Assembly: GCA_025370845.1 (NCBI GenBank)
Contig: JAMXFF010000044.1
Span: 15,658-63,658, forward strand
Length of the DNA stretch: 48,001 nt
From: Laspinema palackyanum D2a
GTDB lineage: Bacteria > Cyanobacteriota > Cyanobacteriia > Cyanobacteriales > Laspinemataceae
Direction of reading: 5' to 3'
The position numbers and the translations under genes were made by a program. Of this stretch, positions 1-46,105 are shown one piece after another. Every line of letters begins with the position of its first letter. Position 1 is the first letter of the stretch. Under the pieces are notes generated by a model, which saw nothing but the letters and a program-made list of their open reading frames with translations, had not been told where the DNA came from and did not search any database.

Positions 1-6222
<6,222 letters not shown>

Positions 6223-6783
6223 ATGGGAACCACCCTGGCCCGGATAGAGGCGTACCTTGACGCCTGGAACTGGAACTATATAGTTGATCGGGCGAATTCG
6301 CGAATTATTACAGCGGTTCGTTCAGAAGTTATCAATCCCTTGCAGATTGTGATCGAGTTAAAAGAACAAGGTAGATTTTGCCGGATTTATGTGCCGCGTC
6401 TCCTCCAGTTTCATCGGCATCCCTATCGGGAGTTGCTGTTGAGTACCCTGCTCTCCCTATCCTGGGAAACGAAAATGCTCCGCTGGGAATACGATTCTCT
6501 GGGAGGAGAAGTTCGTGCTGGCATTGAATTACTCCTGGAAGATGCGGAACTCGAATCAGCACAGTTTTACCGATGCATCAGTAGTTTAGTTCAACTGATT
6601 CAAGATGCCTTGCCGCGACTCAACTCGGTAATGGAGACAGGAGTTGACCCAGTGCAATGTCAACGGGGAGAGCAAGTCTTGCTGATGCTCCAAGAAAAAA
6701 TGCCCAGGGGATTTTTGGATGAATTAGATCAGGCGCTCGCTACCCATCACTCCCGTTCAAAAATCAAACAATCGATGGGTTAA
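6223..6783 (+). CDS. YbjN / type III secretion chaperone-like domain protein
   Basis: The protein has 186 residues. Its layout (LARIEAYLDAWNWNY near the start, then alternating beta strands such as VIELKEQGRFCRIYVPRLLQ, then two amphipathic helices) fits the YbjN or T3S-chaperone-like fold common in cyanobacteria. AGGA lies 9 nt before the ATG. In this fold family, proteins bind partner polypeptides rather than catalyse reactions. It is the first gene of a co-directional series; the next gene starts 82 nt after its stop. That position suggests an accessory or chaperone role for the sigma-like protein or the secreted products of the cluster, which is inference. The family call rests on the overall pattern, not on a diagnostic motif. 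Confidence 0.7.
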   Translation: MGTTLARIEAYLDAWNWNYIVDRANSRIITAVRSEVINPLQIVIELKEQGRFCRIYVPRLLQFHRHPYRELLLSTLLSLSWETKMLRWEYDSLGGEVRAGIELLLEDAELESAQFYRCISSLVQLIQDALPRLNSVMETGVDPVQCQRGEQVLLMLQEKMPRGFLDELDQALATHHSRSKIKQSMG

Positions 6784-6865
6784 CTTCGGTGGGTTAACTC
6801 CTCTATTTCTATATCGCTTACTTGTGCATTACACTGTTCGTCAGGGTCTCTACTCAAATTAATTT

Positions 6866-9007
6866 ATGAGCTCAGGGAAAATCAAGACGATGCCTATTCT
6901 ACCTCATGTCCGCTGCCGCACTTCTCTCGACGAGAAACTAACCACTAGCCTGGAAATTGGCTTTTACCATAACAAATATCAGCCCCACTGGGGAGTCAAA
7001 ACTGACGCTCATCGTTCTCTTGAATACATCAAAAAAACCGATGATTCTATCCAAAACCTCTATAAAGCCGAGGGTGAACCGGAAGATTGGAATAAATTTG
7101 TTATTCATTTAGCTCAACTCTGGCAAGCAGAGCAATTAGCTGGGGTTTATCCGGGACAGCCGAGGCAAAGGGCAAAGGGTTGGAGCAAAAAACATGAACT
7201 CTACCCCCTACTCTGTGCTTATCTCAATGAACCCGCTTACCGAGCCGTTGAAAAAACATCTAAAAGTTGGAAGCGGTTGAAAAATTATACCTGGGAACAC
7301 TGGTTTTTTCAAATTCAAGATATTATTAACAACCCCCAGGAAATTATTAGAATTGTTGAAAATTTTCTCCGTGCTGCCCAGGAAAGCCAGGGGAAAGTTT
7401 CAATGGAATTCTATTTTAAACGGGCTTTTGAGTACAAAATTTTAGAGAAACTGGAACAGTTTGGTATTTCCCGAGCCTCAGATTGGAGGCTGCTCTGTAT
7501 GGCTAACGAAAGCGAGTTAAGACAATCTTTACAAAAACAAGGCACTTCGGATCTAGTGATGGAAAGATATATTTTTGCCTGGGATTATTTTAAATCGGTT
7601 TATAAAGATAACCGAGTGAATCATCCCGGGCGCAAAAAAGGCGATCGATGGCCGAATCCTCACCGGGAAGATTTTGCCGAAGTTTCGCGGTACTATAATC
7701 AAGAAAAAGAATTAACTGGAGTCCCTTTAGCAGTATTTCAAGATACCACCAGAAGCCCAGAACAGATCGCCCAGTGGATGCAGGAATCAGTCCAAGCCTT
7801 GCGAGACAGTGCGCTGCTTGATGAAGTCAATATTAACAATCCCGATGTATTAGATCACCGCCGTCTTCAAAAGTCAGTTGTTTCGCCGACTTCTTCCTCA
7901 AATCCCTCAGATTTATTGGGAAATGTTCAGGAGATTTTGGCTAAAAACCTGGAGCAACTCAATTCCATGTTTGCGCAGGCAATCGCTCAGGGAGAAAAAC
8001 CCGATTATATCGTCAAACTTTTACCCTTGCGCTATGGTCTGGGACTGAGCCAACAAGATGTAGGGCAAATTTTTGGGGTTCATCAAAGCCAAATTTCCCG
8101 CCGCGAGTCCGACTATATCGAGACTCTCCTTTCCTTATTCTGCCAGTGGTTAGCCGATAAAAAAGGCGTCAGTTTAGAACGAATCAATCAGGATTTAGAG
8201 CAGTGGTTATCGGGAGGATATTCTCATCCGAAATTTTCAACTCAAATTCAGGAACTTCTGATGGAAACTCTAGCTAAATCGCTATCTAAGCCCGAACGTA
8301 CTCTGTTAGAAAAACACTATCAGAAGCAGAAGACTATTTCTCAACTTGCCTCGGAACATAAGCTTAAAAATTGGGAAGTAGAGCAGGCCCTAGACCTGGC
8401 AAAACATCCCTTGCGAAGAGTGCTGTGTCTTGCATTGTGGGTGGAAACCTCTACTGAAAAACTTATCAGGCAATCTTATCAAGATTCCATTCACTCCCCT
8501 AACCTACTTTCTGATAAAATATTAGAAGGGGTTGCCACTTTAACCGAACAACAGCAAAAAATCCTCCGATATGTCTATGGCACCCAATTATCTCAGGAAG
8601 AGGTCACTCAAAAGTTAAACTGTACTCCAAATGATCTGACCCGTCAGCTTACGGTATCCCTGAAAGAATTGCAGATAATTTTGCACCTCAAGCTCACGGA
8701 ATTGGTCACCACTACGGTCAAAACTTGGTTAAAATCTCATTGTCAAACCCAAGTTCTTCCCCGATTCTCCAGCCGGTATTGCGAGGAGTATCAACTTTTG
8801 GCCCTGTATTATCAACAACGTTTGAAACCTCGAAAAATCGCCAGTCGCCTGAGTGTTGGCTATCAGGTTACCGTTGAGGAGGTGGTCAACCAACTCTCTC
8901 AAGCGGAAGGACTATTTTTAGAGGCTATCCAGTATTGGTGCCAACACCAGTTAGCAGTCTCCCTTACCCAGGGGGATTTAGAGAAAGTTCTGAAAAAATG
9001 GTTTTAA
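6866..9007 (+). CDS. Long divergent sigma-70-family protein (cyanobacterial type)
   Basis: The protein has 713 residues. The N-terminal 300 residues match the layout of cyanobacterial divergent sigma-70 proteins (helical ELYPLLCAYLNEPAYRAVEKT region, then SLQKQG, then FAWDYFKSVYK, a linker and AEVSRYYN). A region-4-like helix-turn-helix is clear near residues 390-420 (LGLSQQDVGQIFGVHQSQISRRE). Further HTH-like segments follow (about 490-520 TISQLASEHKLKNWEVEQAL, about 570-600 LSQEEVTQKLNCTPNDL, about 650-680). The role inferred is promoter recognition or RNA-polymerase association, but a canonical region 2 is not obvious and activity as a true sigma is unproven. No strong Shine-Dalgarno precedes the chosen ATG; an ATG at 6890 is an alternative. 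The stop is 25 nt before the DUF1822 gene. It is much longer than the 212-residue sigma-like protein at 42042-42680, which occupies the same operon position. Confidence 0.75.
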   Translation: MSSGKIKTMPILPHVRCRTSLDEKLTTSLEIGFYHNKYQPHWGVKTDAHRSLEYIKKTDDSIQNLYKAEGEPEDWNKFVIHLAQLWQAEQLAGVYPGQPRQRAKGWSKKHELYPLLCAYLNEPAYRAVEKTSKSWKRLKNYTWEHWFFQIQDIINNPQEIIRIVENFLRAAQESQGKVSMEFYFKRAFEYKILEKLEQFGISRASDWRLLCMANESELRQSLQKQGTSDLVMERYIFAWDYFKSVYKDNRVNHPGRKKGDRWPNPHREDFAEVSRYYNQEKELTGVPLAVFQDTTRSPEQIAQWMQESVQALRDSALLDEVNINNPDVLDHRRLQKSVVSPTSSSNPSDLLGNVQEILAKNLEQLNSMFAQAIAQGEKPDYIVKLLPLRYGLGLSQQDVGQIFGVHQSQISRRESDYIETLLSLFCQWLADKKGVSLERINQDLEQWLSGGYSHPKFSTQIQELLMETLAKSLSKPERTLLEKHYQKQKTISQLASEHKLKNWEVEQALDLAKHPLRRVLCLALWVETSTEKLIRQSYQDSIHSPNLLSDKILEGVATLTEQQQKILRYVYGTQLSQEEVTQKLNCTPNDLTRQLTVSLKELQIILHLKLTELVTTTVKTWLKSHCQTQVLPRFSSRYCEEYQLLALYYQQRLKPRKIASRLSVGYQVTVEEVVNQLSQAEGLFLEAIQYWCQHQLAVSLTQGDLEKVLKKWF

Positions 9008-9032
9008 TCTTTTCAAATAAGGAGAAACTGAA

Positions 9033-10244
9033 ATGAATGCCAATGTGACCCATCCTATTCCCCCGATTGCTCCCGATGAACTGTATGTTAATTTATCGGT
9101 GGAAATGCAGGCTCAAGCATGGCAAAAGTCTCGATGCCATTCTAACCCCCTTGCTCGAAATCAAGCTTATCTCGGACACTTATGCTTGCAGGGGTTTATG
9201 AGTTGGGTTTCGGAACGATTTGATGGGAACTCTCAGTTCGTGGAACCCTATGTCAACCACTTAGAAAGTCTCTGGGAATTTATAGAGGGAGTTCCGATTG
9301 CCTTGGGAAAGAATCGACTGGTGTTGATTCCCAGTCAAACCTTGAATCCGGATGATTTAATCGTGCCTCGGGAGTGGATGGATATTCCTGAATTGCGGGC
9401 AGATTATTATCTGTCAATTCAAGTCAACTTGGATGAAGAAGAAGAAAACTGCTGGATTTGTGTGCGAGGGTTTGTGACGGATGTAGAGTTGGAAAACCGG
9501 GCAACCTACACCCGTAGTAGTCGCCTTTATGCTTTATCACCAGAGGATTGGCATCAAGATTTAACTCTCCTCTGGGAAACCCTGGGGATTCATCAAGCTA
9601 AACCCGTTTCTCCGTTGCCCGTGATGTCCTATACTACGGTCAAAGATGCAGTGAGCGGGTTGTCCCCAGCAGCATTGCGATCGCCACGACTGCGACTGCA
9701 ACTTCCCTTTGCCCAATGGGGGGGAATCATGGCAAACGAAACCTGGCGCAAGGAACTGTATCAGCAGCGAGTCAAACCTCCTGCTTTAACCCAATGGTTC
9801 CAGACACAAGGGAGTGCGATCGCCACGGAACTCATTGCGATCGGTTGGCAACTTTATCACGAAGTTTTTGGTGGGTCCCAATTAGCGGGAACATTCCGAC
9901 GTGCCCCTGTAGAACCGACAGCGATCGTGAGTCGGGTAAAACAATTGGAGTTAGGTGAGGAGGCGATCGCCCTGGTGATTGATTTAATGGAGGATACGGA
10001 AGGCAACTTGTGGATTTTACCCCAACTGCGGCCCTTTAATCCCGGAGATCGGACCGAATGCTTATCACCCAATTTAAAACTCGCCTTATTAGACGACGAG
10101 GGCACCACTCAAGTTGAAGTGCAATCAGAAACCACAACCAATATTCTCCAATTCCCCCAACCCTTTTGTAGTTCACCTGGGACCAAGTTTGTTCTCAGTA
10201 TCACTCTAGACCACCAAACAATTCTCGAATACTTTACCATTTAA
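9033..10244 (+). CDS. DUF1822 family protein
   Basis: The protein has 403 residues and no signal peptide or membrane segment. The central VPREWMDIPELRADYYLSIQVN stretch, followed by an acidic turn and CWICVRGFVTD, is shared with the broken homologue at 44922-46105. The C-terminal beta-rich part (IALVIDLMEDTEGNLWILPQ) has a counterpart in the 302-residue homologue at 41110-42018. AAGGAG lies 8 nt before the ATG. DUF1822 has no known function. Because it sits between a sigma-like gene and a CHAT protease gene in two operons here, a role as adaptor, anti-sigma factor or protease substrate is a reasonable inference only. Confidence 0.85.
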   Translation: MNANVTHPIPPIAPDELYVNLSVEMQAQAWQKSRCHSNPLARNQAYLGHLCLQGFMSWVSERFDGNSQFVEPYVNHLESLWEFIEGVPIALGKNRLVLIPSQTLNPDDLIVPREWMDIPELRADYYLSIQVNLDEEEENCWICVRGFVTDVELENRATYTRSSRLYALSPEDWHQDLTLLWETLGIHQAKPVSPLPVMSYTTVKDAVSGLSPAALRSPRLRLQLPFAQWGGIMANETWRKELYQQRVKPPALTQWFQTQGSAIATELIAIGWQLYHEVFGGSQLAGTFRRAPVEPTAIVSRVKQLELGEEAIALVIDLMEDTEGNLWILPQLRPFNPGDRTECLSPNLKLALLDDEGTTQVEVQSETTTNILQFPQPFCSSPGTKFVLSITLDHQTILEYFTI

Positions 10245-10283
10245 GCATTCAACCGTTGAGGAAACATTAAGAGGAATAGAAGG

Positions 10284-12608
10284 ATGGCAAAATTAGTCAA
10301 ACTGTCATTAGAGGGAGACCTAACCTCGGGCTATGAAGTCGAGTTAATCCAAATTTCCGAAGAAGAACGGGATGGCAAAGTCATCATCGAAGGGATCGGG
10401 GGAAAACTCCCCCCAGCCGCTGAGATTTACGAATGTTATCAAACCTGGCAACAAAACTATGAACAACTCGACCGGATTTATCGAGGGGGAGAATTTAGAT
10501 TTTTAGGAGTAGAGACGAATTCTAATGTTTCTTTAGCCAAATGTCAACAACTATCACAAACCCTGGAACAGAAAATTAACGACTGGCTAGATGCTCCAGG
10601 ATTTAGGGCGATCGCCGATAACATACTCACTTACTTAAACCCCGAAGAAGACATAAGATTTTTAATTAAAACCAGCGATTATAAACTCTGGCAAATTCCT
10701 TGGTCTGCGTGGATATTTTTTGAAACCCATCCCAATGCCGAAGTCGTCTTTAGCTCCTTCGATGCCAAATATGGAGAAAAACCGATTAAAGTCACCCCCA
10801 GAAAAAACGTCAAAATTTTATCCGTTTTTGGCAGCGATGATAATATTAATACCAAACCGGATCGGGAACAAATTGAACGCTTAAAATCTGTCGGCGCTGA
10901 ACCCACTTTGATTGTCAAACCCAGCGTGGATCATCTCAGAAATTTATTATGGGATAAATCCTGGGATATTTTCTTTTTTGCTGGACATGGAGACCGAGAT
11001 AAAAATTCCCAAAAAGGTAAAATTTATCTCAACTCTACTGAGTCTTTAACTCCCTCGGAGTTTAAAAATACTTTGAAAAGCGCTATTGTTGACCGCAATT
11101 TAAAAATAGTCCTTTTAAATTCCTGCTTAGGACTGGAATTTGCATACGAACTGGTGGTAGAATTCAAAATACCCGTCGTCATCGCCATGCGCGAACAAAT
11201 TCCTGACGATGCCGCTCAGAAATTTTTAGAATATTATCTGCTTGAATATGCAGATAATAACCGTCCTTTGTATGTTGCAGTTCGCCGTGCTAAAGAGCGG
11301 ATTGCCGAAGAGTTTCAAAATAAATATCCTGGACTCAACTGGCTGCCAGTTGTCTGTCAAAATCCAGCCCATATTCCCCTAAAGTGGGGGGATTTATATA
11401 ATAAAATTTCATTGAAGCAAGCCACTGTAACCAGTTTAGTTTGTACCTTTATTGTCGTCTTAGCCAGGATTTTAGGGTTGTTTCAATCATCGGAGTTAGC
11501 TGCCTACGACTTTTTTCTGCGTTCGAGACCGGCAGAAGCACCAGATGAACGCATTTTACTGATCACGATAGATGATGATGATATAGACTACCAATACGAA
11601 GAGAAAAATTTTACGAATCGATTTTCTTTAGCTGAAGAAGCATTTAATCAAATTAACCAAAAAATTATACCTTATCAGCCCATAATAGTTGGACTTGATA
11701 TTTATCAAGAGCAGTCATTTACAAACAATGAATTATCCGAGACCATAGAAACCCTAATCAAGCAAAAACGAATGATCGGGGTGTGTAGAATTGGGGATTC
11801 TCAAGAGGTTCCCTCTCTTAGGATTAATGAGACATTTGCCCAGCCTCAAAGTATTGGGTTTACCGATGTGCCATTTGACCCTGACAATTTAATTCGTCGG
11901 CAATTATTTGGCGCTCCATCAACTGATAAATGCCCAACCAGTTTTTCTTTAAATCTCCGGGTTGCTTTACGATATTTAGAAATTGTTTTAAATCAAAGTT
12001 CGGTTATGAAAACTTTATCGGATGGACAAAGAGAAATTCAGGGTATTTTCTTTAGAAAATTAGAATTTAATGCGGGGGGCTATCAATTGCCGAGCAATCG
12101 GGTTAATGGATATCAAGTTTTATTAAATTATCGAAATGCTGACTTTAATAAAATTTCTCTTCGAGATTTGCTTGAAGGAGTTTATGATTTAGAGTTGCCC
12201 AATTTAATTCATAATCGTATTATTTTAATTGGAGCAACGGAGTTGGATAGTCATGGAACTCCTTTTAGAAATAACTTGAACAAGAACATGGCTGGAGTGG
12301 AGATTCAAGCTCATCAAATCAGTCAAATTATAAGTGCAGTTTTAGATGGAAGACCACTTTTTTGGTGGTGGTCGGAGTGGCAAGAAATTGTTTGGATTGG
12401 CTCTTGGTCTTTAATCGGAGGGTTATTAGTCTGGAAAGTGCGATCGCCACTAAGTTTAGGATTATCTAGCATCACTGCCATCTACATTTTAGGCGGAGTC
12501 TGCTGGGTTTTATTTCTCCAAGGAGGGTGGATTCCTCTGATTCCTTCGGCTTTTGCTTTAATCTTAACAACTGGAACATTGGTATTCTACAGAAACTACC
12601 CAATCTGA
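10284..12608 (+). CDS. CHAT protease fused to a membrane-anchored CHASE2 sensor domain
   Basis: The protein has 774 residues. An N-terminal module (MAKLVKLSLEGDL to GGKLPPAAEIY) is shared with the CHAT protein at 39258-41081. The CHAT caspase-like domain carries His235 (FFAGHGD) and Cys281 (LNSCLGLEF), the expected dyad. A membrane segment follows near 388-408, then an extracytoplasmic CHASE2 domain (about 410-690, YDFFLRSRPAEAPDERILLITIDD), then two or three hydrophobic segments at 695-774. The topology places the protease in the cytoplasm and the sensor outside, so an external signal could control proteolysis (inference from known CHASE2 topology). It lies 39 nt after DUF1822 and 30 nt before the DUF928 gene. 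The start has a purine-rich AGGAATAGAAGG directly upstream. Confidence 0.88.
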   Translation: MAKLVKLSLEGDLTSGYEVELIQISEEERDGKVIIEGIGGKLPPAAEIYECYQTWQQNYEQLDRIYRGGEFRFLGVETNSNVSLAKCQQLSQTLEQKINDWLDAPGFRAIADNILTYLNPEEDIRFLIKTSDYKLWQIPWSAWIFFETHPNAEVVFSSFDAKYGEKPIKVTPRKNVKILSVFGSDDNINTKPDREQIERLKSVGAEPTLIVKPSVDHLRNLLWDKSWDIFFFAGHGDRDKNSQKGKIYLNSTESLTPSEFKNTLKSAIVDRNLKIVLLNSCLGLEFAYELVVEFKIPVVIAMREQIPDDAAQKFLEYYLLEYADNNRPLYVAVRRAKERIAEEFQNKYPGLNWLPVVCQNPAHIPLKWGDLYNKISLKQATVTSLVCTFIVVLARILGLFQSSELAAYDFFLRSRPAEAPDERILLITIDDDDIDYQYEEKNFTNRFSLAEEAFNQINQKIIPYQPIIVGLDIYQEQSFTNNELSETIETLIKQKRMIGVCRIGDSQEVPSLRINETFAQPQSIGFTDVPFDPDNLIRRQLFGAPSTDKCPTSFSLNLRVALRYLEIVLNQSSVMKTLSDGQREIQGIFFRKLEFNAGGYQLPSNRVNGYQVLLNYRNADFNKISLRDLLEGVYDLELPNLIHNRIILIGATELDSHGTPFRNNLNKNMAGVEIQAHQISQIISAVLDGRPLFWWWSEWQEIVWIGSWSLIGGLLVWKVRSPLSLGLSSITAIYILGGVCWVLFLQGGWIPLIPSAFALILTTGTLVFYRNYPI

Positions 12609-12638
12609 TTTTATTTTAACCTAAATAGGTGAAACATT

Positions 12639-13361
12639 ATGAAAACTAAATCACTCTTATTTCACAAAACAATCGGTTTCAGTCTAATTCCTGCTTTAAT
12701 TCTGCTTCTCAGTCTACCGATGAATGTTTTATCCAATCAAAAGGGTGAGCAGCAAAACTTTGAGGATGAAGAGCCAATCAGTGATGTTGTAGATGCAGGA
12801 AGTCGTGGAATCTGTAGGGTTGAGTCTAGTGAAAACCTTAGACTAACCGCATTAGCTCCGTCCGTACAAATAGGAGAAACGCTAAAAAGTCAACCTAGTT
12901 TCTGGTTTTATTCTCCTTATAGTTTAGAGCATCAAATTACAGCAAGGTTTAATATGCTTAAAGAAGACGATAAAAATTTTATTGACCCGATTGAGATAGC
13001 TTTACCTAAAACTCCTGGTTTTTTTAAAGTATCTATTCCCCAAAAATATATACTGGATAAAAATCTTGACTACAATTGGTATTTATCCGTGATATGTAAT
13101 CCTCAAGATGAAAGTCAAAATATTGTCCTTCAAGGATGGATTCACCGGATTCAAGAAAATGACTTGTTAGACGATGACTACTTACTTTGGTACGATCAGG
13201 TAGATTCCCTCGCCGTCGAGCGATGCGAGGATAATACCAACGAAGACTTAAAACAAAAATGGGAAACTCTTTTATATTCCGTTGCCGATCAACTAGACGA
13301 AAATCGCCGGAATTATTGGAATAATGTAATAGATCAACCGATGAACTGTCCGGGTATTTAA
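12639..13361 (+). CDS. DUF928 family exported protein
   Basis: The protein has 240 residues. It begins with a Sec-type signal (lysines, then IGFSLIPALILLLSLPMNVLS, cleavage near residue 32). The mature part contains the DUF928 pattern ENLRLTALAPSVQIGETLKSQPSFWFYSPY and later YNWYLSVICNPQDESQNIVLQGWI, with a paired-cysteine arrangement. DUF928 is a cyanobacterial family of unknown function often found next to CHASE2-CHAT and two-partner secretion genes. AGGTG lies 8 nt before the ATG. It is the last gene of the plus-strand operon and is followed by a bidirectional hairpin. An extracytoplasmic role is likely. Confidence 0.85.
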   Translation: MKTKSLLFHKTIGFSLIPALILLLSLPMNVLSNQKGEQQNFEDEEPISDVVDAGSRGICRVESSENLRLTALAPSVQIGETLKSQPSFWFYSPYSLEHQITARFNMLKEDDKNFIDPIEIALPKTPGFFKVSIPQKYILDKNLDYNWYLSVICNPQDESQNIVLQGWIHRIQENDLLDDDYLLWYDQVDSLAVERCEDNTNEDLKQKWETLLYSVADQLDENRRNYWNNVIDQPMNCPGI

Positions 13362-13368
13362 ATTGATT

Positions 13369-13405
13369 ATCCACCTATCTTGATATTCGATAGGTGGATT
13401 TTATC
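13369..13405. terminator. Bidirectional hairpin terminator between convergent genes
   Basis: An 11-bp perfect stem (ATCCACCTATC at 13369-13379 with GATAGGTGGAT at 13389-13399) has a 9-nt loop and is followed by TTTTAT on the plus strand. It lies between the ends of the DUF928 gene and the TPR-CHAT gene, where both transcription units need to stop. Confidence 0.75.
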
Positions 13406-13426
13406 AAAGTTGAAAAATAAAAAAGA

Positions 13427-16276
13427 TTACAAAGCATTTTTTAACAAGATAAAAGATGCCCAATGATAGGGATGTCGATGTCGGTAACGAGGGTTTCTTT
13501 TTCCTTGTTCAATTACAAATTTTTGGGCTTGGCGCAGGGCCTGAGAAATATGAACATTTGTATCTTCATAACTTTCAGGTAGTTGATTCAAATTTTTGTA
13601 AAACTGATTCATCAGTATAGAAGTCGATTCATCATTGACAGACCAGAGTGATGCAATTGTATTATTAATTCTACTATTGACCGTTACTCCGGCAATTCCT
13701 AAAGCAGATTTACGGTCTCCCTCGGCAGTTTTACAAGCGCTTAAAACTAATAACTGAATTTGATTGGCTATAGCGTTTTGATTGCTTCTGAACAAATTAT
13801 TAAAATCAGTTAAATCAATAATTCCATCTCCAGCTAAAATAAATGTAAAATACCGTTGCGAACTAAAGTGTCCATGAGTGGCTAAATGAAGAATGGAGAA
13901 GGAATTATTTTCAATGGTATCTTTAATATTATTTTTTGTGAAACTGGATTCAAAAAACTGTCGGGTTTCAGGGAATTCATTGCTGATATTAGTTAGCTCA
14001 TTCTCTACAAAAAATAAGTCATTAAATGCGATATTTCGTTCCATTCTTCCTTGAGTAATTCCAGCGCTCAAGACTTGTATTAATTTATTGTTTGCAGGCT
14101 TTTTTATTAGCAATTGTAGAGTAGTCATCAAAGATATTTCATGGTCTTCAATTAAATATCTTTTAGTGTTTTTATCGTATAATCCTGCCATCGGAATAGT
14201 TTGAAAGGGAATGTCCAGAATGAAAACTAACGGTTTGCTCTGAACGCGGGCTGCCCAAGGTTCAATTAACCATTGATATACTTCATCCGATAACTGGTGA
14301 AGTTGTTCGGATTGACTCCTGTCTTTAAATCGAGATTTTAAGTTATTTATGGTATCTTTAAATTCTGCGGCTGGCTTGAGAATTGAATGATGGACTAAGG
14401 GCTGTTCTGCTAAAGCTAAAATCACTTCTAGCTTGTTGGGCAAAATCATGGGGTAAATCAGGGCATAGTTTGGATCTTTTTGGAAGATCAATTCTAATTT
14501 TTCAGCAACCTTCTGTTTAGCTTCAGCAACACTGCGGGCCAACTGAATTTGGGGTTCGGGTTGCAAGTCACATTGGAGAAAATTCTCTAATTCAGCCACT
14601 TGCAGGAGTTCGATGACGCCTAAAGCGGTTTGAATATGATCTTGACGGGTGACTTCATTCCCTTGGGGGTCTAAGAGTAATCCGACTAACTCCCGATAGA
14701 CGGGTTCGACCCGATCGCGAAAATCAAACTGGAGGTCCGCATTCATCTCACCCATGTTAGCCGCGATCGCCACTAAATTTTGACGCACCCTTTGCAGCAA
14801 ATCCACCGCTTCCGTATAATGCCGAATCGCTTCCTCCGTTCTCCCCTCTTCTTTGAGAATTTGTCCCAACTGCCACTCCCACTGATACCGGATATCGATC
14901 GCATCCGGTGGCGTAATCGCAACGGCTTGTCGGGTCCACTGTTCCGCTTCCGTCCAATTACCCTGCTGTTGTTTCATCCATCCTAACTCACCGATCGCAT
15001 AGGCTTGGGCACGTTTATCTGCTAACTCCCGCGCTTCAGCAAGGGCAGTTTCTAACTGATTTTGGCTCCATTCTCGGTTCAGTCGGGTTAAACTCCGTGC
15101 TAAATGAATGCGATCGTACACCTTCTCCCGATTCAAGGGCAGAATCTCAATCAGTTGGAGAACTTGAGGGGCTAATTCATTCGCCTGCCTCTCTAACTGA
15201 CTGGTTTGGTCCTCTAATCCTTCGACATCTTTTAAGTCCAATGCGAGGCTCAAGTGGTTCACCATCGCTTGAACTTGAGTCTCGGTTTTGACTGCCGGTA
15301 AAGTCCAGACTTGTTCATAAAATTCCTGGGCTTTTTTATAAAAATACAAAGCATTAATAGAGTTCTTCGATTCCACCGGAGATTCACAAGTCTGGGTCCC
15401 TTCTTCCGTAAAAAATGGGTCAGTTTGTTCGTCTGTAATAGAATCCAATTGGTCTTTAATCCGCTTGCCGATTGCCTGGGCGGTATTTCCCAATTCCAGG
15501 ACAATCTCCGGATTTCCCTGTCCAAGTTGTAAAACACAGTAGGACTGGTCCAACACCCCGATCGCCCGATAAGTTTTCCCCAAATTGAGGATGCCACTCA
15601 ATCGAATCTCCGGTTCAGAATGATTAATAATCGGGTCTTCCAAGTTCTTTAAAGTTTTCAATGCTTCCCGATACATTCCCAATTGCTGCATCGCTTGAGC
15701 TTGATTAATCTGGCTGGCAATCATCCATTTTTCCTGGTTTAACTGCTCATAAATTGCAGTCGCTTCAGCCAACTGTTCTAAGGCATGAGCTGCTAATTCC
15801 GGTTGATTTCGCGCCAAATTAACCTGGGCCGATGTAGTCAAAATCCGAGCATGAATGGTTTGCTTGCGCTCGGATGTTCCTGGTGTCGTCACCTGATTTA
15901 ACAGTCTGATACTTTCCTGAATCGAGGTTTCGGCATCATCCAATTTGCTTTGGCGCAATTGAGCTAAAGCCATATAACTGAACCCTAATGCTTTTTCCTC
16001 TCCCGATAATAACCCGACTGCTGCTTGCCAAGCAGTTTCAGATTCAGCAAACCGGAGACTTTCATATAACTGAGTCCCTTCCTCTAACCGGCTTTCTCCG
16101 TTAGAAATCGGAGTTTGAGCGACCGTTTCAGCCCCCGCTTGATGGGCAACCACGGGTGAAACCCCTTGGAGATTTAAGATAGTAATCGTTGCGAAAATAC
16201 TGAGGAGAATAAATTTCCAACCCTGGTTTAGAAAGGATTGTACTTTACTGAAAAATGGATGCCATTTTCTTGCCAT
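13427..16276 (-). CDS. Exported TPR-CHAT protein
   Basis: The protein has 949 residues. The N-terminus has basic residues and the hydrophobic stretch FILLSIFATITILNLQG ending before VVAHQAGA, a signal peptide or anchor. Residues about 60-480 carry TPR-like helical pairs (EEGTQLYESLRFAESETAWQAA, TEAEQWTRQAVAITP). The CHAT domain is C-terminal, with His801 (LATHGHF) and Cys848 (LSACKTAEG), and ends with the usual HPYHWASFIL motif. The start lies 49 nt inside the end of the upstream TpsA-TpsB gene, so translation is probably coupled. The signal sequence suggests that this CHAT domain acts outside the cytoplasm, possibly on the secreted partner. That substrate is inference. Confidence 0.88.
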   Translation of the reverse strand: MARKWHPFFSKVQSFLNQGWKFILLSIFATITILNLQGVSPVVAHQAGAETVAQTPISNGESRLEEGTQLYESLRFAESETAWQAAVGLLSGEEKALGFSYMALAQLRQSKLDDAETSIQESIRLLNQVTTPGTSERKQTIHARILTTSAQVNLARNQPELAAHALEQLAEATAIYEQLNQEKWMIASQINQAQAMQQLGMYREALKTLKNLEDPIINHSEPEIRLSGILNLGKTYRAIGVLDQSYCVLQLGQGNPEIVLELGNTAQAIGKRIKDQLDSITDEQTDPFFTEEGTQTCESPVESKNSINALYFYKKAQEFYEQVWTLPAVKTETQVQAMVNHLSLALDLKDVEGLEDQTSQLERQANELAPQVLQLIEILPLNREKVYDRIHLARSLTRLNREWSQNQLETALAEARELADKRAQAYAIGELGWMKQQQGNWTEAEQWTRQAVAITPPDAIDIRYQWEWQLGQILKEEGRTEEAIRHYTEAVDLLQRVRQNLVAIAANMGEMNADLQFDFRDRVEPVYRELVGLLLDPQGNEVTRQDHIQTALGVIELLQVAELENFLQCDLQPEPQIQLARSVAEAKQKVAEKLELIFQKDPNYALIYPMILPNKLEVILALAEQPLVHHSILKPAAEFKDTINNLKSRFKDRSQSEQLHQLSDEVYQWLIEPWAARVQSKPLVFILDIPFQTIPMAGLYDKNTKRYLIEDHEISLMTTLQLLIKKPANNKLIQVLSAGITQGRMERNIAFNDLFFVENELTNISNEFPETRQFFESSFTKNNIKDTIENNSFSILHLATHGHFSSQRYFTFILAGDGIIDLTDFNNLFRSNQNAIANQIQLLVLSACKTAEGDRKSALGIAGVTVNSRINNTIASLWSVNDESTSILMNQFYKNLNQLPESYEDTNVHISQALRQAQKFVIEQGKRNPRYRHRHPYHWASFILLKNAL

Positions 16277-36544: not shown

Positions 36545-36548
36545 CGTT

Positions 36549-36553
36549 CTCCT
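36549..36553 (-). promoter_or_regulatory. Ribosome binding site deciding the start of the giant exoprotein
   Basis: On the minus strand AGGAG is followed after 4 nt by ATG 36544 and after 7 nt by ATG 36541. The upstream GTG at 36559 would place this site inside the coding region. Confidence 0.65.
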
Positions 36554-36664
36554 ATGCACCCTTGGTTTCTGTTCACCCGTTAAACGGTTTCCTGACGCCT
36601 CATAATTGGACGTTTCATTTATAGAGCCTCAATTCAATCCTCCTCTGGTCTAGCTTTACCAATT

Positions 36665-38579: not shown

Positions 38580-38607
38580 CCTGATCTCTGGTATCGGTGG
38601 CAAGGGT

Positions 38608-38780
38608 GGTGGATTAATCCACCGCTTAATAAATGTAGAGGTGAGAAAGCGAATAGCCTCTACCTTTAGGATTGGCTCTCCCCAAATATGTAAATCCTGT
38701 TCATAAATTGCCCCCACAACTGATGAAATGGTTCTTTCCCTGTAAAGACAAGGTAAGGTATTGCCTTGTCTTTTGTTTTT
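38608..38780 (+). terminator. Terminator hairpin region after the CAP-RTX gene
   Basis: AAAGACAAGG (38744-38753) pairs with CCTTGTCTTT (38764-38773) over a 10-nt loop and is followed by TGTTTTT on the plus strand, a good intrinsic terminator about 165 nt after the stop. A 16-bp palindrome, GGTGGATTAATCCACC (38608-38623), lies between and may be a processing or pause hairpin. The rest of 38580-39018 shows no convincing gene. Confidence 0.7.
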
Positions 38781-39018
38781 GGGGTAGCGTTAGAGTCGTC
38801 TTCTTTTTTCGGTTGAAACTGAGAAACATTTATTGGGTTCGTGCATAAATTTCGCAATTCTCCCCACTGATATCAATAGAGCAGGAAACCGCCGTTGAAA
38901 CTCAAGTGATTCCATGAGTTGTTAGCGGCCTGTGATTTTCTAAAATGCAAACTTTGCGACTTTGAACCAAGCCATTGAGCAGCTTTTGTTCAAATTTATT
39001 GTGGGTAAGAACAGAACA

Positions 39019-39228
39019 ATGAATGATTCAATATTTCTCAACTCTCTTTTCTTGGGTTTAATCGTAATGGGTCAACCCTCTTCAACTTTAGAGGTTACTT
39101 CTGCTGCTTTAGGCTCCCATCTGGGGCTAATTGCAATGGAAATTAGCACAGCAGAAAATTCTTCGGAAATTTGCTTTGATGACAAAGGAAATAAATATCA
39201 TTGTCCTTCATTTCATGAAACCACCTAG
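39019..39228 (+). CDS. Possible small secreted or membrane peptide (hypothetical)
   Basis: ATG 39019 opens 69 codons; a longer frame would need a TTG at 38962. The start MNDSIFLNSLFLGLIVMG is signal-like. The tail ENSSEICFDDKGNKYHCPSF has two cysteines and reads like a small exported protein. The ribosome binding site is weak and I recognise no family. It ends 29 nt before the end of the convergent CHAT gene. Confidence 0.35.
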   Translation: MNDSIFLNSLFLGLIVMGQPSSTLEVTSAALGSHLGLIAMEISTAENSSEICFDDKGNKYHCPSFHETT

Positions 39229-39257
39229 TTTTTCTAGGAGGGATAGAGAGCAATCAG

Positions 39258-41081
39258 CTAATTCTGGGGAGGGGAAATTTCCAATAACCGTTTTTTTGCC
39301 ATGCCTAACCATAAATATTCCTCCGGTTTCTGGGGATTAGCAAGGGTTTGGCACTCTTCCCAGAGGGCGATCGCCTCGGGAAACTGCCCTAAATTCTCCC
39401 GCACTTGTGCTAACAAACAATAGGGAGATGCATAATTCTGGTTTAAATTCAAGGCCATTTCCAGAGATTCTCCGGCCTCCACCTCTCGACCTAGTTTCAG
39501 TTGAGTCCACCCCAGGTTTTTGTACAGGGCGAATTTGTCCCGTTCCTGGGTCGCCAATTCTAATCCACGGGTGAAAAAATGCAGGGCAGTGTGATAATCT
39601 TTATCCACATTCATCGAGATAGAACCTAGTTGATTATAAGCGGCAGTAGACCCTAATTTGGCAGATTTTTGATAGTTGAATCGCGCACATTCATAATCCC
39701 GTACCGTCTCACAATTCCAAGCTTTATTATAATATACCTTGGGATTATAAGGGTCGAACACCAAAGCTAAATCTAGCTTTTTCCAGTAGTCCGATAAATC
39801 TCCTATCTCATAACTATCCATCCCACTATTATTCAGCCTGGTTGCCAGGGTTGGAGCAATTTGTTGCCAACTGATAATTCCCAGACTCGCTAGGATAATT
39901 CCCGTGATCCACTGAACAGAATACCTCGGCCTAAAATGCCATTGCTTCTCGGGAATTTGAGGCAGTGGCGATAACGGAGATACCCGTTCCTGTTCCCTAG
40001 ATTTTCCCCGTAAATCCGCCCAACTTGGCGGCATCATCGTCGGATTTTGACAAATCACCGGCAACCAACTCGCACAGGGAAATTCTCCTTCTAACCCCTC
40101 CAATCTTTCCCGCGCTTCTCGCATTGCTAAATAAAACGATTCCCCTCGGGAAAAAGCCGCTAGAAAATACTGTAAAAAGCTGTGAGCTACGCAGTCAGGA
40201 ACGGGTTCCCGCATTACCACGGTTTGGGGGATATTTAACTCAGCAAATTCCCGCGCTAATCCTAACCCATCACAGGAGTTAAAGATAGCAATTTGCAATC
40301 CTCGGGCGACAGATTTAGTTAATCCATATTTTAACTCTTCTAGGGTTAAACTGTCTTGAGGGTTAATATAAATTCGGCCACTCTCCCCTTGGGTTTCACT
40401 ATGTCCAGCAAAAAAGAGAATATCCCAGGAGTCTTCCCACAGGCGATCGCTCAGTTCTTCAGGGGTCGGTTCCACCAAAAAAGTCACTGCCGCATCGGGT
40501 AAGTTTTCCAGAACCTGGCGGTCAATTTCAATATCAATCCCTTCTTTATGTCCCAAAATCGCCAGAATTTTTACTGCATTTTGAGCCATTTTCAAACAAT
40601 TTACTCGTTTCGCACTAGGAGAAATGAGCGCCAGTTCCGTATTAGGATAGCGTTCAAAAAAGTCCCATAAGTGCCAAGGCAGCTTTTGTACTAAAGACTG
40701 ATTGCTGCGAATCAACACGCGCACGATTTCAGTCCGATTTAACTCTTCCCGTAGAGTTTTATCCAGGGGTAAAAAGTCTTTAGACTCAATCCAATCTTGG
40801 AAGCAGTCGCTCAAAATTTTGGCGGCATCTCGACATTCTTGAACCCGTTGAACCATCGAGCCATTATAAATAATTTGTTTCGGTTTGAGTCCTCGCCGAG
40901 TATCAAGATTCCGATATTTCGCTTCCCACTGCTGCAAGCGAATCGGCAGATCCGGTGCAGGGGGTAATTTTCCCGGGATTTCTATAGAAGGGCGATCGCC
41001 TTCTGTCCCAATTTCTAATGTCACGCCAAACCCCTGACGATGGAAATCCCCCTCTAGCTTAATCACCACTAATTTAGCCAT
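39258..41081 (-). CDS. CHAT protease with membrane segment and C-terminal TPR repeats
   Basis: The start at ATG 41081 is chosen because MAKLVVIKLEGDF aligns with the start of the CHAT-CHASE2 protein at 10284; the frame stays open upstream to 41141, overlapping DUF1822. The protein has 607 residues. An N-terminal module of about 160 residues shared with that paralogue precedes a CHAT domain with His227 (FFAGHSE) and Cys270 (FNSCDGLGL), then PWHLWDFFERYPN-like and CASWLPVICQNP landmarks also shared. A hydrophobic segment (SVQWITGIILASLGIISW, about residues 385-405) is followed by TPR-like repeats to the end (YNQLGSISMNVDKDYHTALHFF). The TPR part replaces the CHASE2 sensor of the paralogue. It is the third gene of a sigma-like, DUF1822, CHAT operon, 28 nt after DUF1822. 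Confidence 0.88.
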   Translation of the reverse strand: MAKLVVIKLEGDFHRQGFGVTLEIGTEGDRPSIEIPGKLPPAPDLPIRLQQWEAKYRNLDTRRGLKPKQIIYNGSMVQRVQECRDAAKILSDCFQDWIESKDFLPLDKTLREELNRTEIVRVLIRSNQSLVQKLPWHLWDFFERYPNTELALISPSAKRVNCLKMAQNAVKILAILGHKEGIDIEIDRQVLENLPDAAVTFLVEPTPEELSDRLWEDSWDILFFAGHSETQGESGRIYINPQDSLTLEELKYGLTKSVARGLQIAIFNSCDGLGLAREFAELNIPQTVVMREPVPDCVAHSFLQYFLAAFSRGESFYLAMREARERLEGLEGEFPCASWLPVICQNPTMMPPSWADLRGKSREQERVSPLSPLPQIPEKQWHFRPRYSVQWITGIILASLGIISWQQIAPTLATRLNNSGMDSYEIGDLSDYWKKLDLALVFDPYNPKVYYNKAWNCETVRDYECARFNYQKSAKLGSTAAYNQLGSISMNVDKDYHTALHFFTRGLELATQERDKFALYKNLGWTQLKLGREVEAGESLEMALNLNQNYASPYCLLAQVRENLGQFPEAIALWEECQTLANPQKPEEYLWLGMAKKRLLEISPPQN

Positions 41082-41109
41082 ATCAGTCCCCCCAGACTTG
41101 AGCTGTAAT

Positions 41110-42018
41110 TCAGATGATAAACGCTTCCGTAACGCTGACATCCCCTAACTCTAGTTTAATACTAAACTGGTCTCCCGGTTCACCACTAAAATTGAGTTGA
41201 ATATTTTTCGTACTGCGCGCTTGTGCCTGCATCACAGACACTTGGGAACTATCCAAAACCATCACCTGCAAATCCCGGGGTAAATGGGTTTGTTCTCCAA
41301 TGGGATAGACTTCCACCCAAATATCCATTTCTGGGGGATTTGTGGGTTTGATTCCCACCAATAAAGCCACGGAATCGCCAGTTGAATTCAAGTCGAGTAA
41401 CTTTCCGCCCTTCACCGCAGTTTGAGTGGTTCTAAACTGTAACGCCAATTCTAATTGAGGAACCTCTAACAACTCTTCCACCCGTTTCCATCGCGCATCC
41501 CAACAGTGATGCAACCATTGAGACAGATGAATCCGTTGAGTTGAGGGCTTAGAATGAAGGCAGTCAATAAAACATTCTAACCCCTGAAACTGGGACAAGG
41601 GAAAAGGGTTGCTGGAAATTTTTTCAGCAAATCCCAGTAATCTAGCTTGGGTCCGGGATGGATTAATTTCCACGGCAATATAGCCGATTCTCTCTGATAA
41701 AGCCTCTGGGGGAACTTCCACGCAGTCAGCCTCAACCTGAACCGGGAGGCATTCGATTTTTCCTCCATTCCCTAACTGTAAATCTGCAATATCCAGTAAA
41801 CTTTGCATGACGGGATTCCAGCTATCACTAGCAGTTAACTGGGTGGGAATGCCTAAACATTGACAATAATAATTAACCGCCAGCACTGCCAAGGTATTCT
41901 CATATACCTGGGCGGATTTTGCCGCAGTTAAGTGCTGCTGACCAAACTGTTGAGCCATTTTATGGTATTTTTGGATCAACGATGTCGTAAAAGTGAGTTG
42001 CTCGATGTTCATTTCCAT
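41110..42018 (-). CDS. DUF1822 family protein
   Basis: The protein has 302 residues, shorter than the 403-residue homologue at 9033-10244. The N-terminal helical part (SLIQKYHKMAQQFGQQHLTAAKSAQ) and the C-terminal beta-rich part (GDSVALLVGIKPTNPPEMDIWVEVYPI) identify DUF1822; the latter aligns with the end of the broken copy at 44922-46105. There is no signal peptide or membrane segment, so it is cytoplasmic. It starts 23 nt after the sigma-like gene and ends 28 nt before the CHAT gene. The Shine-Dalgarno is weak, consistent with coupled translation. Its function is unknown. Confidence 0.85.
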   Translation of the reverse strand: MEMNIEQLTFTTSLIQKYHKMAQQFGQQHLTAAKSAQVYENTLAVLAVNYYCQCLGIPTQLTASDSWNPVMQSLLDIADLQLGNGGKIECLPVQVEADCVEVPPEALSERIGYIAVEINPSRTQARLLGFAEKISSNPFPLSQFQGLECFIDCLHSKPSTQRIHLSQWLHHCWDARWKRVEELLEVPQLELALQFRTTQTAVKGGKLLDLNSTGDSVALLVGIKPTNPPEMDIWVEVYPIGEQTHLPRDLQVMVLDSSQVSVMQAQARSTKNIQLNFSGEPGDQFSIKLELGDVSVTEAFII

Positions 42019-42041
42019 AAATTCACTTAACTTGAGCCGGT

Positions 42042-42680
42042 TTATTCATCAATAAAGAGCGTTTGAAGCGGGACCGACAGTTCCTTTAAAGAGCGTTGAT
42101 AAAAAGAACTGAGAGTAGAAACCGTAACGTTTAAATCAACCGAGAGAGTTTTCCATTTGATTCCTGCCAATCGAGCTAAAGCAATCTGTTGAAAGTTGAC
42201 ATCGGGTCGATTTTTTAAATGGGTGCGTTGAAAGAGCCCGTCCCGATCCTCCTCAATATATTGTTGAAGAAGCTGGGATGGAGACGGTTGGGTTTCCGGT
42301 TGGGGGATTAACTCGACTTCCGCAGTGGAGAGCGGGCGATCGCCCTTTTTGCCAACAACGGTTTTAATCCCTTCAATGATAAATCGCTTATCCAGCAGAT
42401 AATTGACCCAAGTCATCACCGAACCCCGTCCCGAATCATAGCGATCAATATTCTCACAAACAAACAACCACAATCGAGAGAGGGCCTCAGCATAAATTTC
42501 CTCATACACCGCGATAAATTCACCTTGACGGGGACGGGATAGCTTCCCAGAACCGGCGATCGCCCCTACTAGCTTTGTCAAAGCAAGCTGCCGTTCTCGA
42601 CTCTGGGGAGGATGCCCCTGTGCTAACTCAGCATAGTGCTGCATTTCCTCATCTTGTCTATTTCTATCTCGCTCAGGCAT
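42042..42680 (-). CDS. Short sigma-70-like protein
   Basis: The protein has 212 residues. A region-2-like segment covers about residues 60-105 (YAEALSRLWLFVCENIDRYDSGRGSVMTWVNYLLDKRF), and a region-4-like helix-turn-helix lies near 165-200 (ALARLAGIKWKTLSVDLNVTVSTLSSFYQRSLKEL). This is the two-domain layout of ECF-like sigma factors, but the sequence is divergent. AGGA lies 7 nt before the ATG. It heads a three-gene operon with DUF1822 and a CHAT protease. A role in RNA polymerase binding is inferred from the family. It corresponds in position to the 713-residue sigma-like protein at 6866. Confidence 0.75.
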   Translation of the reverse strand: MPERDRNRQDEEMQHYAELAQGHPPQSRERQLALTKLVGAIAGSGKLSRPRQGEFIAVYEEIYAEALSRLWLFVCENIDRYDSGRGSVMTWVNYLLDKRFIIEGIKTVVGKKGDRPLSTAEVELIPQPETQPSPSQLLQQYIEEDRDGLFQRTHLKNRPDVNFQQIALARLAGIKWKTLSVDLNVTVSTLSSFYQRSLKELSVPLQTLFIDE

Positions 42681-44921: not shown

Positions 44922-46105
44922 TTAGGTAATAAATTCCTCCCTAACGCTAACCTCATTCACTGAAACTTTTACTTGAAATCGAGTATCAGAAGGCAGACTA
45001 AACTGTAATTGAATTGAATTATCTATTATCTTATTATCTTTCTCTTCTCCTTCCTCATTACTTCGAGTTTCCACTTCTTGCTTGATTTCCCCCGATTCCG
45101 AAAACACGCTCAATTTTAGATGGGGTGGTAGTTTCCTTCTCTCTATCGGTTGGACTTGCAAAAACACATCGAGTTTATCCTTACTTCTGGGCATAATCGC
45201 CACAATTAGCGCCACCGAATGACCCTCTAACTGCATCCCGAAATCCAGGTATCTGGCTTTTCTAATCCCTGCTAGAGGATTACCCGGACTAACTTTACCC
45301 AAACTCAGCACCGCTTGCCTACGGGTTTCTTCGTCGCGAGCGGTATGCAACAATTGGGTTAAGGCATCGATCACTTCTGGATTGCCTACTCCAAGTTCTC
45401 CTAAAACCCCAGCAGCGTGACGGCGAGTCTGTTCGATTTGGTCGGGTTCCAACAAACGAATTACTGGCGCGATTGCACCCATAACGTCGCTTTTTTCTCG
45501 CACTGCATTGGGTTCCGGTGGAGATACTAACGCTTCAAACTGTTGCCATCCATTTTTTAGCACATTTTTTCCAAATTCCAGCATATTCTTTAACCATTGT
45601 CGTAATTTCACCGGCGTTGTTTTTGCTGTTACTGTTTCTAATTTTCCCATGCACCAAGCGTACAATTTTTGTCTAAGGAGATCCTCCGTTATCAGCGCCG
45701 CCCATTTATCAAAAAATACCTACAGTTGCAAACCCGACGAATACAGTAAGGCATCCTCTAACTGCTCTACCCATTGTTTTTCTTCTGTTTTCGATAACTG
45801 AAGCAACGGTTTCACCGCTTTGCGTACTTGAAGTCCTATAGTTATCTCCATTACGGTTAAGTCAGAGGTTAATTCTGCGATTGGCACCAAATAACTGCGA
45901 TTGTTTGCATCATATTTTCCGTGATTTTTCACCTGTCGATGAGTGGCAAACCCCCACACTTGCATCCAACAGTCATCTTCATCCCCTTCCAAACTGATGC
46001 TCACCGCTAAATAATAATCTCCGATCTAGTTGGGATTGTCTACCCATTCTTCGGGTACAGTTGTGGTTTGGGAATCTGGCTATCGCGGTTAAAAGGATTT
46101 AACAT
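44922..46105 (-). pseudogene. Decayed DUF1822 gene with two in-frame amber codons
   Basis: A single minus-strand frame carries DUF1822 homology across two TAG codons, at 46026-46028 and 45720-45722. Before the first stop it reads VPEEWVDNPN, then IGDYYLAVSISLEGDEDDCW, aligning with the intact copy at 9033 (VPREWMDIPELRADYYL). The first TAG sits where a Trp is expected. The frame continues through the second TAG as VFFDKWAALITEDLLRQK into a region with HEAT-like repeats (AAGVLGELGVGNPEVIDALTQLL) and the DUF1822 C-terminal part ending VREEFIT. A candidate start, MLNPFNRDSQ at 46105, is in another frame and the usual N-terminal 100 residues are missing. Deletion, frameshift and nonsense changes together indicate a relic, though the 3' part from about 45665 could still be translated. 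Confidence 0.75.

Follow-up and report, generated by a model that had tools for sequence, protein, structure and literature searches.

A sigma-like, DUF1822 and CHAT protease gene triad of Laspinema palackyanum D2a as a possible proteolytic switch for sigma factors

The two operons and their genes

The stretch analyzed here, called the window, is 48,001 nucleotides of the Laspinema palackyanum D2a genome (GenBank assembly GCA_025370845.1, contig JAMXFF010000044.1, positions 15,658 to 63,658, forward strand). It contains two operons, each composed of a sigma-like gene, a DUF1822 gene and a CHAT protease gene in the same order, and all six open reading frames (ORFs) were found where a first-pass annotation, made from the bare sequence, had placed them. 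In both operons the three genes are co-directional and closely spaced, i.e., by their coordinates, with gaps of 25 and 39 bases in operon 1 and with a 23-base gap followed by a 32-base overlap in operon 2. The sigma-like gene had been called divergent, which holds for its sequence and not for its orientation. The gene order is conserved and the protease dyad is intact, as established by computation. On balance, we lean towards reading each operon as a proteolytic switch, driven by a sensor, that controls a sigma factor, judging from sequence, structure models and analogy.

Operon 1 lies on the plus strand. Its sigma-like protein of 713 amino acids (aa) (6866..9007) was recognized from the ORF by Pfam, NCBIfam and a family hidden Markov model (HMM). 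The DUF1822 protein of 403 aa (9033..10244; Pfam) was assigned by homology an N-domain, a linker and an immunoglobulin (Ig)-like C-domain, the split being transferred from the model of its 302-aa counterpart. The third gene (10284..12608) encodes a protease of 774 aa, in which a constant N-terminal block (EACC2-like), CHAT, CHASE2 (residues 388-714) and predicted membrane spans were found by Pfam, alignment and hydropathy.

Operon 2 lies on the minus strand. An extracytoplasmic function (ECF)-like sigma factor of 212 aa is encoded at 42042..42680 (ORF, NCBIfam, family profile), followed by the DUF1822 protein of 302 aa at 41110..42018 (ORF, Pfam, AlphaFold2 model). The alpha/beta N-domain of the latter (residues 8-156, 41551..41997) is a putative anti-sigma domain according to the model and neighbour association, and its beta-sandwich C-domain (residues 202-302, 41113..41415) would recruit the protease, as suggested by the model, Ig/macroglobulin (MG)-like Foldseek matches and neighbour association. 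The protease of 627 aa (39258..41141; ORF, Pfam, alignment) has the constant N-terminal block, CHAT and TPR. Both DUF1822 proteins (183 and 203 bits in operons 1 and 2, cut-off 25) and both CHAT domains (33 and 46.5 bits, cut-off 24) scored over the Pfam cut-offs.

In both proteases, the caspase-type domain stands after the constant block, and the C-terminus varies. CHASE2 scored 183.8 bits in the 774-aa protease, whereas the 627-aa protease has TPR repeats instead (Pfam). The same contrast of shared N-terminal module and differing C-termini had been noticed in the first-pass annotation, and Pfam and alignment agree with it. Among 135 aligned rows, counting rows with a residue at the position, His was invariant in 128/128 and Cys in 125/125. 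These are His235 (codon 10986..10988) and Cys281 (11124..11126) on the plus strand in operon 1, and His247 (40401..40403) and Cys290 (40272..40274) on the minus strand in operon 2, which we take to be the catalytic dyad of CHAT cysteine proteases. Because both residues are invariant, catalysis is predicted. A STAND/WD40 version of the triad-type protease was found at one locus (L250; L numbers denote the loci collected for comparison). Identity with HetF was rejected, i.e., the NCBIfam HetF model (NF045509) gave 33.0 and 17.7 bits on the CHAT part of the window proteases, at an equivalog cut-off of 1200.

Two sigma-like families occupy the first slot of the triad; the proteins of one are small and ECF-like, and those of the other are larger, mostly 380-500 aa. 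The HMMs of the two families have no member in common, and iterating the larger HMM pulls in a few small ones. The 713-aa protein is the longest among 69 members counted in the larger family. It matched Pfam Sigma70_r4 at 43 bits (cut-off 24.1; residues 557-587) and NCBIfam sigma70-ECF at 52.8 bits (cut-off 42.9) in three stretches, and no sigma region 2 was detected by Pfam or NCBIfam. Its first region-4-like helix-turn-helix (HTH), the one common to the family, was placed at residues 384-428 (8015..8149; region-4 HMM, 52 bits). A possible second segment at residues 466-520 (8261..8425) is weak; it comes from Phage_antitermQ (24.3 bits, Pfam) and Sig-70_gvs1 (24.3 bits, NCBIfam), both under cut-off, and was not matched by the region-4 HMM. 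A further HTH lies at residues 565-598 (8558..8659), seen by Pfam Sigma70_r4 at 557-587 and by the region-4 HMM, and a weak segment at residues 643-669 (8792..8872; region-4 HMM, 10.6 bits). All four are on the plus strand. The region-4 HMM gives three units, and 466-520 is a possible fourth from matches below cut-off. By the same HMM, 66 of 70 sigma-like proteins have a single unit and three have two (L039, L075, L179). A multi-region-4 sigma-like protein is believed new, with no literature search made on that point. Equating the larger family with SigJ was considered and dropped, since there was no named sequence for comparison.

The 212-aa protein had no sigma match in Pfam, and NCBIfam SigK was reached at E 2.1e-4, far under the cut-off of that model. 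A profile of 31 small-family members found ECF SigK (4nqw) at E 7.7e-4 over region 2. By these computations, the small family resembles ECF sigma factors in sequence.

A decayed DUF1822 gene, i.e., a pseudogene with a HEAT-like stretch and two in-frame TAG stops, was located at 44922..46004 on the minus strand (about 44928-46079 in the DUF1822 search). Repeated duplication had been proposed from this relic; the decayed gene is real, but better evidence is given by the nine DUF1822 places in the 7.41-Mb D2a assembly. An additional full triad is found on contig 42 of the same assembly (L040). On contig 37 (L039, 4951-8299), a 621-aa double-region-4 sigma-like gene and a 489-aa DUF1822 gene were observed with no CHAT gene following. 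Rfam gave no match within the window.

Gene order in other genomes

DUF1822 was searched in 146 genomes, 107 of which had a match, and 140 loci were fetched among the matches listed. This set, selected throughout by DUF1822, consists of the window and L039-L178 except L046. The first-pass annotation had let its idea depend on the order being kept elsewhere, and it is: among 116 full-length DUF1822 genes with both flanks present, a sigma-like gene lies directly upstream in 105, a CHAT gene of the triad type directly downstream in 66, and both together in 58. Counted from the sigma side, 114 of the 122 sigma-like genes in the 140 loci directly precede DUF1822, and for this reason the association is held to be above chance. 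Of the eight remaining genes, three directly follow a DUF1822-N gene and belong to the sister family described below. Among the genes examined in the CHAT slot, other proteases were found, i.e., trypsin-like (L097, L100, L101), C14 (L144) and classic TPR-CHAT (L055, L056, L150).

The set was enlarged by 53 named-genome loci, selected for likeness to the DUF1822 of the window, and six plasmid loci. In this tally, which took the 202 of 212 DUF1822 ORFs with more than 700 bases on each side, 174 full-length DUF1822 genes had the sigma-like gene in 150 cases, CHAT in 115 and both in 95. DUF1822 matches occurred in 19 plasmid records, and the triad on a plasmid of Nostoc sp. C052 is annotated as sigma-70, DUF1822 and CHASE2. 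In several Nostoc genomes (L201, L203, L204, L208, L210, L213), a DUF1822-CHAT pair without sigma gene stands head to head with a full triad, a layout in which two protease arms may share one sigma.

A census independent of DUF1822 selection was made by searching the N-terminal block of the protease in 59 genomes. Nineteen were positive, with 48 genes. A gene with the DUF1822 C-domain lies within 600 bases upstream in 30 of them, 27 with the N-domain and three without it. The 18 others comprise 16 genes with no DUF1822-C within 600 bases upstream and two with a CHAT ORF there (the second of two at L044, and a split gene at L260). These 18 genes rule out DUF1822 as an obligatory partner of the protease; the link is common only.

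The neighbourhood of EACC2-caspase, ECF sigma and DUF1822 was already described in eLife 2021 (Kaur, Iyer, Burroughs, and Aravind; PMC8195603), and the window triads are members of this published kind. In the passages of that paper used here, the EACC2 system has a constant N-terminal module and a caspase domain, a variable C-terminus including CHASE2, and adjoining ECF sigma and DUF1822 genes; autopeptidase activation was proposed, DUF1822 was labelled as a TPR protein, and the systems were treated among conflict systems. The N-terminal block of the window proteases agrees with the EACC2 description in position and neighbours, and is a candidate EACC2 domain on that basis. Operon 2, with its ECF-like sigma, agrees with the published layout, whereas operon 1 has a larger sigma-like protein instead of a plain ECF sigma.

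The two halves of DUF1822

The 302-aa DUF1822 protein was modeled with AlphaFold2 from 59 sequences (pLDDT 86.5, pTM 0.56). The model consists of an alpha/beta N-domain (about residues 8-156), a linker, and an eight-stranded Ig-like sandwich (202-302). Foldseek gave no match at E < 0.001 for this model, and its top matches include Ig/macroglobulin-like domains of about the length of the C-domain. By hydropathy, no membrane span was found in the window DUF1822 proteins. The TPR label found in passages of PMC8195603 was rejected for them, since Pfam gave no TPR family match and the model is alpha/beta plus beta-sandwich.

The two domains have different neighbours, as computed from genes that carry only one of them. 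Genes with the N-domain only had a sigma-like gene upstream in 8/10 and a triad-type CHAT downstream in 0/10; genes with the C-domain only had them in 1/8 and 6/8 (Fisher, p 0.015 for sigma and 0.0015 for CHAT). These sets were cut from 15 and 12 genes to 10 and 8. The genes removed were L062 (one gene split by a stop, in both sets), L176 (sister family), L183 and L184 (near copies of L182), L236 (truncated), the window pseudogene, and the fragments L159 and L167. With no such drops, the counts were 12/15 for sigma and 0/15 for CHAT in the N-only set, and 1/12 and 8/12 in the C-only set. The idea of the split was prompted by loci fetched in the first batch, L041 and L044 among them; in loci fetched after it had been noted, with nothing dropped, N-only genes gave 6/8 for sigma and 0/8 for CHAT, and C-only genes 1/8 and 6/8. 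Some N-only genes (L145, L157, L182) precede a classic TPR-CHAT gene that the triad-type CHAT HMM does not match. From the way its two domains part, the best-supported reading of DUF1822 would be the anti-sigma or cleavable adaptor that the first-pass annotation had proposed.

If the genes were merely co-inherited or co-transcribed without physical coupling, it would be reasonable to find some units on plasmids, as was the case in the 19 plasmid records. However, the halves of DUF1822 track different partners and 114/122 sigma-like genes are directly upstream of DUF1822, so that we regard it as very improbable.

In some proteins, another domain takes the place of the N-domain. PIN_3 (Pfam cut-off 27) was found at L172 (34 bits) and L251 (28 bits), and TRADD-like_N (cut-off 24) at L044, L166 and L258 (37, 48 and 47 bits). 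L251 and L258 come from the CHAT census and are outside the N-only and C-only counts; Pfam scored the C-domain of L251 under its cut-off and did not list that of L258, but a custom C-domain HMM gave them 55.7 and 46.8 bits. The PIN_3 proteins (L172, L251) and the TRADD-like_N proteins of L044 and L166 stand beside the triad-type protease. Because these PIN and TRADD-N proteins beside CHAT carry the C-domain, it is the C-domain, rather than sigma, that protease-linked proteins have in common. Five TRADD-N places were found in the 59 genomes. Both places beside a triad-type CHAT (L044; L258, convergent) have the C-domain, and the three away from it (L262-L264, L264 being a 4.5-kb contig) do not, in a comparison of small numbers for which L044 and L258 were known beforehand.

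Several of these loci are described further as follows. The PIN proteins ending in the DUF1822 C-domain lie directly 5' of the CHAT protease gene (L172, 5024-8658; L251, 4567-7578), and the L172 PIN gene is preceded by an HTH_3 gene, like a toxin-antitoxin pair plus a protease. Two C-only DUF1822 proteins (L170, 5650-6594; L171, 5989-7014) begin with 110-150 aa without Pfam match, which are PemK/MazF-like by eye only.

The C-domain on PIN_3 and TRADD-like_N proteins beside the triad-type protease would also suit a conflict or cell-suicide module, in which an invader triggers the protease and sigma is one output among PIN nucleases and TRADD-N/HTH proteins. The STAND/WD40 version of the protease, the placing of these genes among conflict systems in passages of PMC8195603 and a weak PADLOC match of the L172 PIN protein (19.3 bits) point the same way. 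The six window proteins, however, had no PADLOC match, CHASE2 indicates an external small-molecule cue, and the linked genes counted are of the secretion type. The conflict module is considered rather unlikely; it may be the biological role of the switch and not its opposite.

DUF1822-N was also found in a sister family of the same phylum (f25, genomes of about 2 Mb), in which 56 genomes have one DUF1822 match each among the matches listed and others have none. Here the N-domain begins a protein that is 929-1294 aa long and has a single predicted span, and the C-terminus was TonB-like in 3/3 proteins scanned. An ECF sigma-like gene of 187-198 aa is directly downstream in 8/8 loci in which the N-domain ORF was read and the downstream side is present (L176-L178, L265-L268, L270). 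At L269 the sigma-like gene is present and the N-domain ORF was not called, and L175 ends at a contig end. No match to the custom triad-type CHAT HMM was found in these loci. The custom N-domain HMM included L175 and L176 among its training rows; an older DUF1822 HMM, trained without sister-family sequences, gave 38-62 bits for L175-L178. The N-domain first, one span, an outer domain and an adjacent sigma gene form the classical anti-sigma layout, and from sequence the sister-family arrangement looks like a membrane anti-sigma system. Because the pairing of DUF1822-N with sigma persists without the triad protease, DUF1822-N on its own seems to act on sigma.

Two other explanations were considered. 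DUF1822 could be a scaffold that joins protease and sigma, the protease cutting sigma or only itself and DUF1822 not being a substrate. The autopeptidase activation proposed in passages of PMC8195603 fits such a role, and a C-domain carried by several unrelated modules suits docking equally with cleavage. Because the DUF1822-N/sigma pairing is kept where the triad protease is absent (0/10 in N-only genes, no CHAT HMM match in the sister family), the scaffold is judged improbable. DUF1822 could also be a positive partner of sigma, i.e., a chaperone or activator, as association alone is compatible with either sign of the effect. In ECF systems, an operon of sigma and partner and a one-span partner are features of known anti-sigma pairs. 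Both the sigma-then-partner operon and the one-span topology of the sister family, where the partner precedes sigma, are typical of such pairs, and a positive role is given a low probability.

Related systems and the proposed switch

The first-pass annotation had compared the triads with type III-E CRISPR. In passages of PMC10028731, the N-domain of Csx30 binds CASP-sigma, full-length Csx30 blocks DNA binding by CASP-sigma, and Csx29 cleaves in the Csx30 C-domain. The likeness to Csx29-Csx30-CASP-sigma consists of a CHAT protease and a two-domain protein next to an ECF-like sigma, and DUF1822 would be, by analogy, the counterpart of Csx30, an inhibitor of sigma with two domains, the N-domain for binding sigma and the C-domain as the site of cleavage. 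In contrast, the sensor of the triad (CHASE2 or TPR) sits on the protease itself.

Cas7-11/gRAMP had no Pfam match among the window ORFs scanned, and no CRISPR-like repeats were present in window positions 1-15000 and 38000-48001, the two stretches searched. Against solved structures, the CHAT profile found no chain at E up to 0.1 and the DUF1822 profile found only charybdin at E 0.23. Chains of Csx29 and Csx30 are presumably present in that structure set. Without Cas7-11, repeats or a credible structure match in these searches, membership in type III-E CRISPR was rejected, and kinship with it was not supported.

The HetF-PatU3-HetZ system of Anabaena is a second parallel from cyanobacteria, in which a CHAT protease that has membrane and TPR parts cuts the inhibitor of a gene-expression regulator (PMC12288457, PMC8406250, in part). 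According to passages of PMC12288457, HetF cleaves PatU3, the restrainer of HetZ. The window proteases differ in scoring far under the HetF cut-off, and in those passages HetZ is not called a sigma factor and DUF1822 is absent. By analogy, the triad would work like Csx29/Csx30 and HetF/PatU3, being a member of neither by the tests run. Passages of PLoS One 2012 (PMC3501461) report that Myxococcus and others have conserved operons of sigma-70 and metacaspase genes, and that a metacaspase-CHASE2 protein with membrane spans occurs in Trichodesmium. These resemble the triads in a caspase homologue adjoining a sigma-70 gene and, separately, in a caspase domain fused to CHASE2 and spans, whereas they are metacaspases by the definition of that paper, the sigma operons are mostly of other phyla, and DUF1822 goes unmentioned in those passages. 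The one-span topology of the sister-family proteins is like that of the DegS/RseP-RseA-sigmaE anti-sigma systems; the window DUF1822 proteins, by contrast, have no span by hydropathy and the protease is caspase-like.

In open full-text literature, with subscription papers mostly outside the search, DUF1822 was named only in PMC8195603 and one genome paper, and no other publication on the sigma/DUF1822/CHAT triad was among the matches listed (in one search, 15 of 1,603). PMC10907252 and PMC7159879, which were among these matches, mention neither DUF1822 nor sigma factors. The passages used of PMC8195603 are silent on a C-domain common to TRADD-N proteins and on the N-domain as anti-sigma. The two-half DUF1822, the anti-sigma N-domain and the C-tail common to PIN and TRADD-N proteins are believed new within the literature searched.

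The switch is proposed to work in four steps. The alpha/beta N-domain of DUF1822 would hold the sigma-like protein inactive, and would represent a new class of anti-sigma domain. The CHAT protease would recognize the Ig-like C-domain and probably cut DUF1822 in the linker or the C-domain. The variable C-terminus of the protease, i.e., CHASE2 and spans in operon 1 and TPR in operon 2, would sense a stimulus and activate the Cys/His site. Loss of DUF1822 would then free sigma, whose regulon might perhaps include neighbouring DUF928, two-partner-secretion and TPR-CHAT genes.

Association of sigma and DUF1822 is also hinted at by a joined sigma-DUF1822 chain of another species (L205). Its model had pLDDT 87.2 and pTM 0.61, compared with pTM 0.56 for the window DUF1822 alone despite the added domains, a rise that is suggestive only.

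Several points weigh against the proposed switch. Triad-type CHAT is not directly downstream of 50 of the 116 full-length DUF1822 genes, some of the genes found there instead are unrelated (L050, L061, L135), and 18 of the 48 census CHAT genes have no DUF1822-C gene directly upstream. Few genes make up the N-only and C-only sets, from which fragments were removed by hand after the data had been seen. No cut site was predicted in DUF1822. Foldseek matched the N-domain to no known anti-sigma fold and the joined model to no sigma/anti-sigma complex; neither model had a match at E < 0.001, the best ones being Ig-like or otherwise generic. Pfam recognized DUF1822 in one of three sister-family proteins scanned (L176), the others resting on custom HMMs. 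Distance correlations in 44 triads run in the predicted direction (sigma-N 0.51 and sigma-C 0.41; CHAT-C 0.39 and CHAT-N 0.33), yet both bootstrap intervals include zero.

Of possible targets, a DUF928 gene is placed directly after operon 1 (12639..13361, plus strand; Pfam) as part of a linked cassette. Near DUF1822, 29 DUF928 genes were counted with a custom HMM in 1.57 Mb of 120 loci, i.e., 18.5 per Mb, compared with a base rate near 1 per Mb (103 Pfam matches, 17 positive genomes of 59, about 98 Mb by rounded sizes). The same DUF1822 loci held 13 two-partner-secretion genes in 12 loci and 35 classic CHAT genes in 33 loci, as plain counts. At most, this linkage hints that the linked DUF928/secretion cassette is under the control of the switch.

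Other features of the window were as follows. A 186-aa ORF without Pfam match (6223-6783, plus strand) lies before operon 1; its relatives flank an N-only DUF1822 gene in the same genome (L041, 4543-5097 and 7177-8250) and occur also at L169 and L231. A 1365-aa ORF (16228-20325, minus strand) with a TPS secretion domain, POTRA and ShlB unites both halves of two-partner secretion in one protein. A giant surface or secreted protein of 4075 aa (24332-36559, minus strand) has subtilase S8, P-domain, Calx-beta, C-type and L-type lectin domains and SBBP repeats. Degenerate repeats of 66 bases form an array at 2521-3201.

A wider reading of these observations is put forward tentatively. The DUF1822 C-domain would be a portable caspase-target domain, the same Ig-like tail placing sigma (via the anti-sigma domain), PIN nucleases and TRADD-N/HTH proteins under one class of sensor-bearing cyanobacterial proteases. 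DUF1822-N would be a new anti-sigma class common to photosynthetic cyanobacteria and to a membrane TonB-type system of the sister family without the triad protease, and the 713-aa protein would be a sigma-like one that reads DNA through as many as four region-4-like units.

Cyanobacteria have many caspase-like proteases, and the substrate is known for only a few of them. If one half of DUF1822 holds sigma and the other recruits the protease, a likely substrate could be read from the sequence for many such proteases. A single shared domain would then connect the caspase neighbourhoods coupled to sigma with those coupled to TRADD-N, which had been presented together in 2021, and protease-released sigma factors would appear as an ordinary signalling device that arose outside CRISPR.

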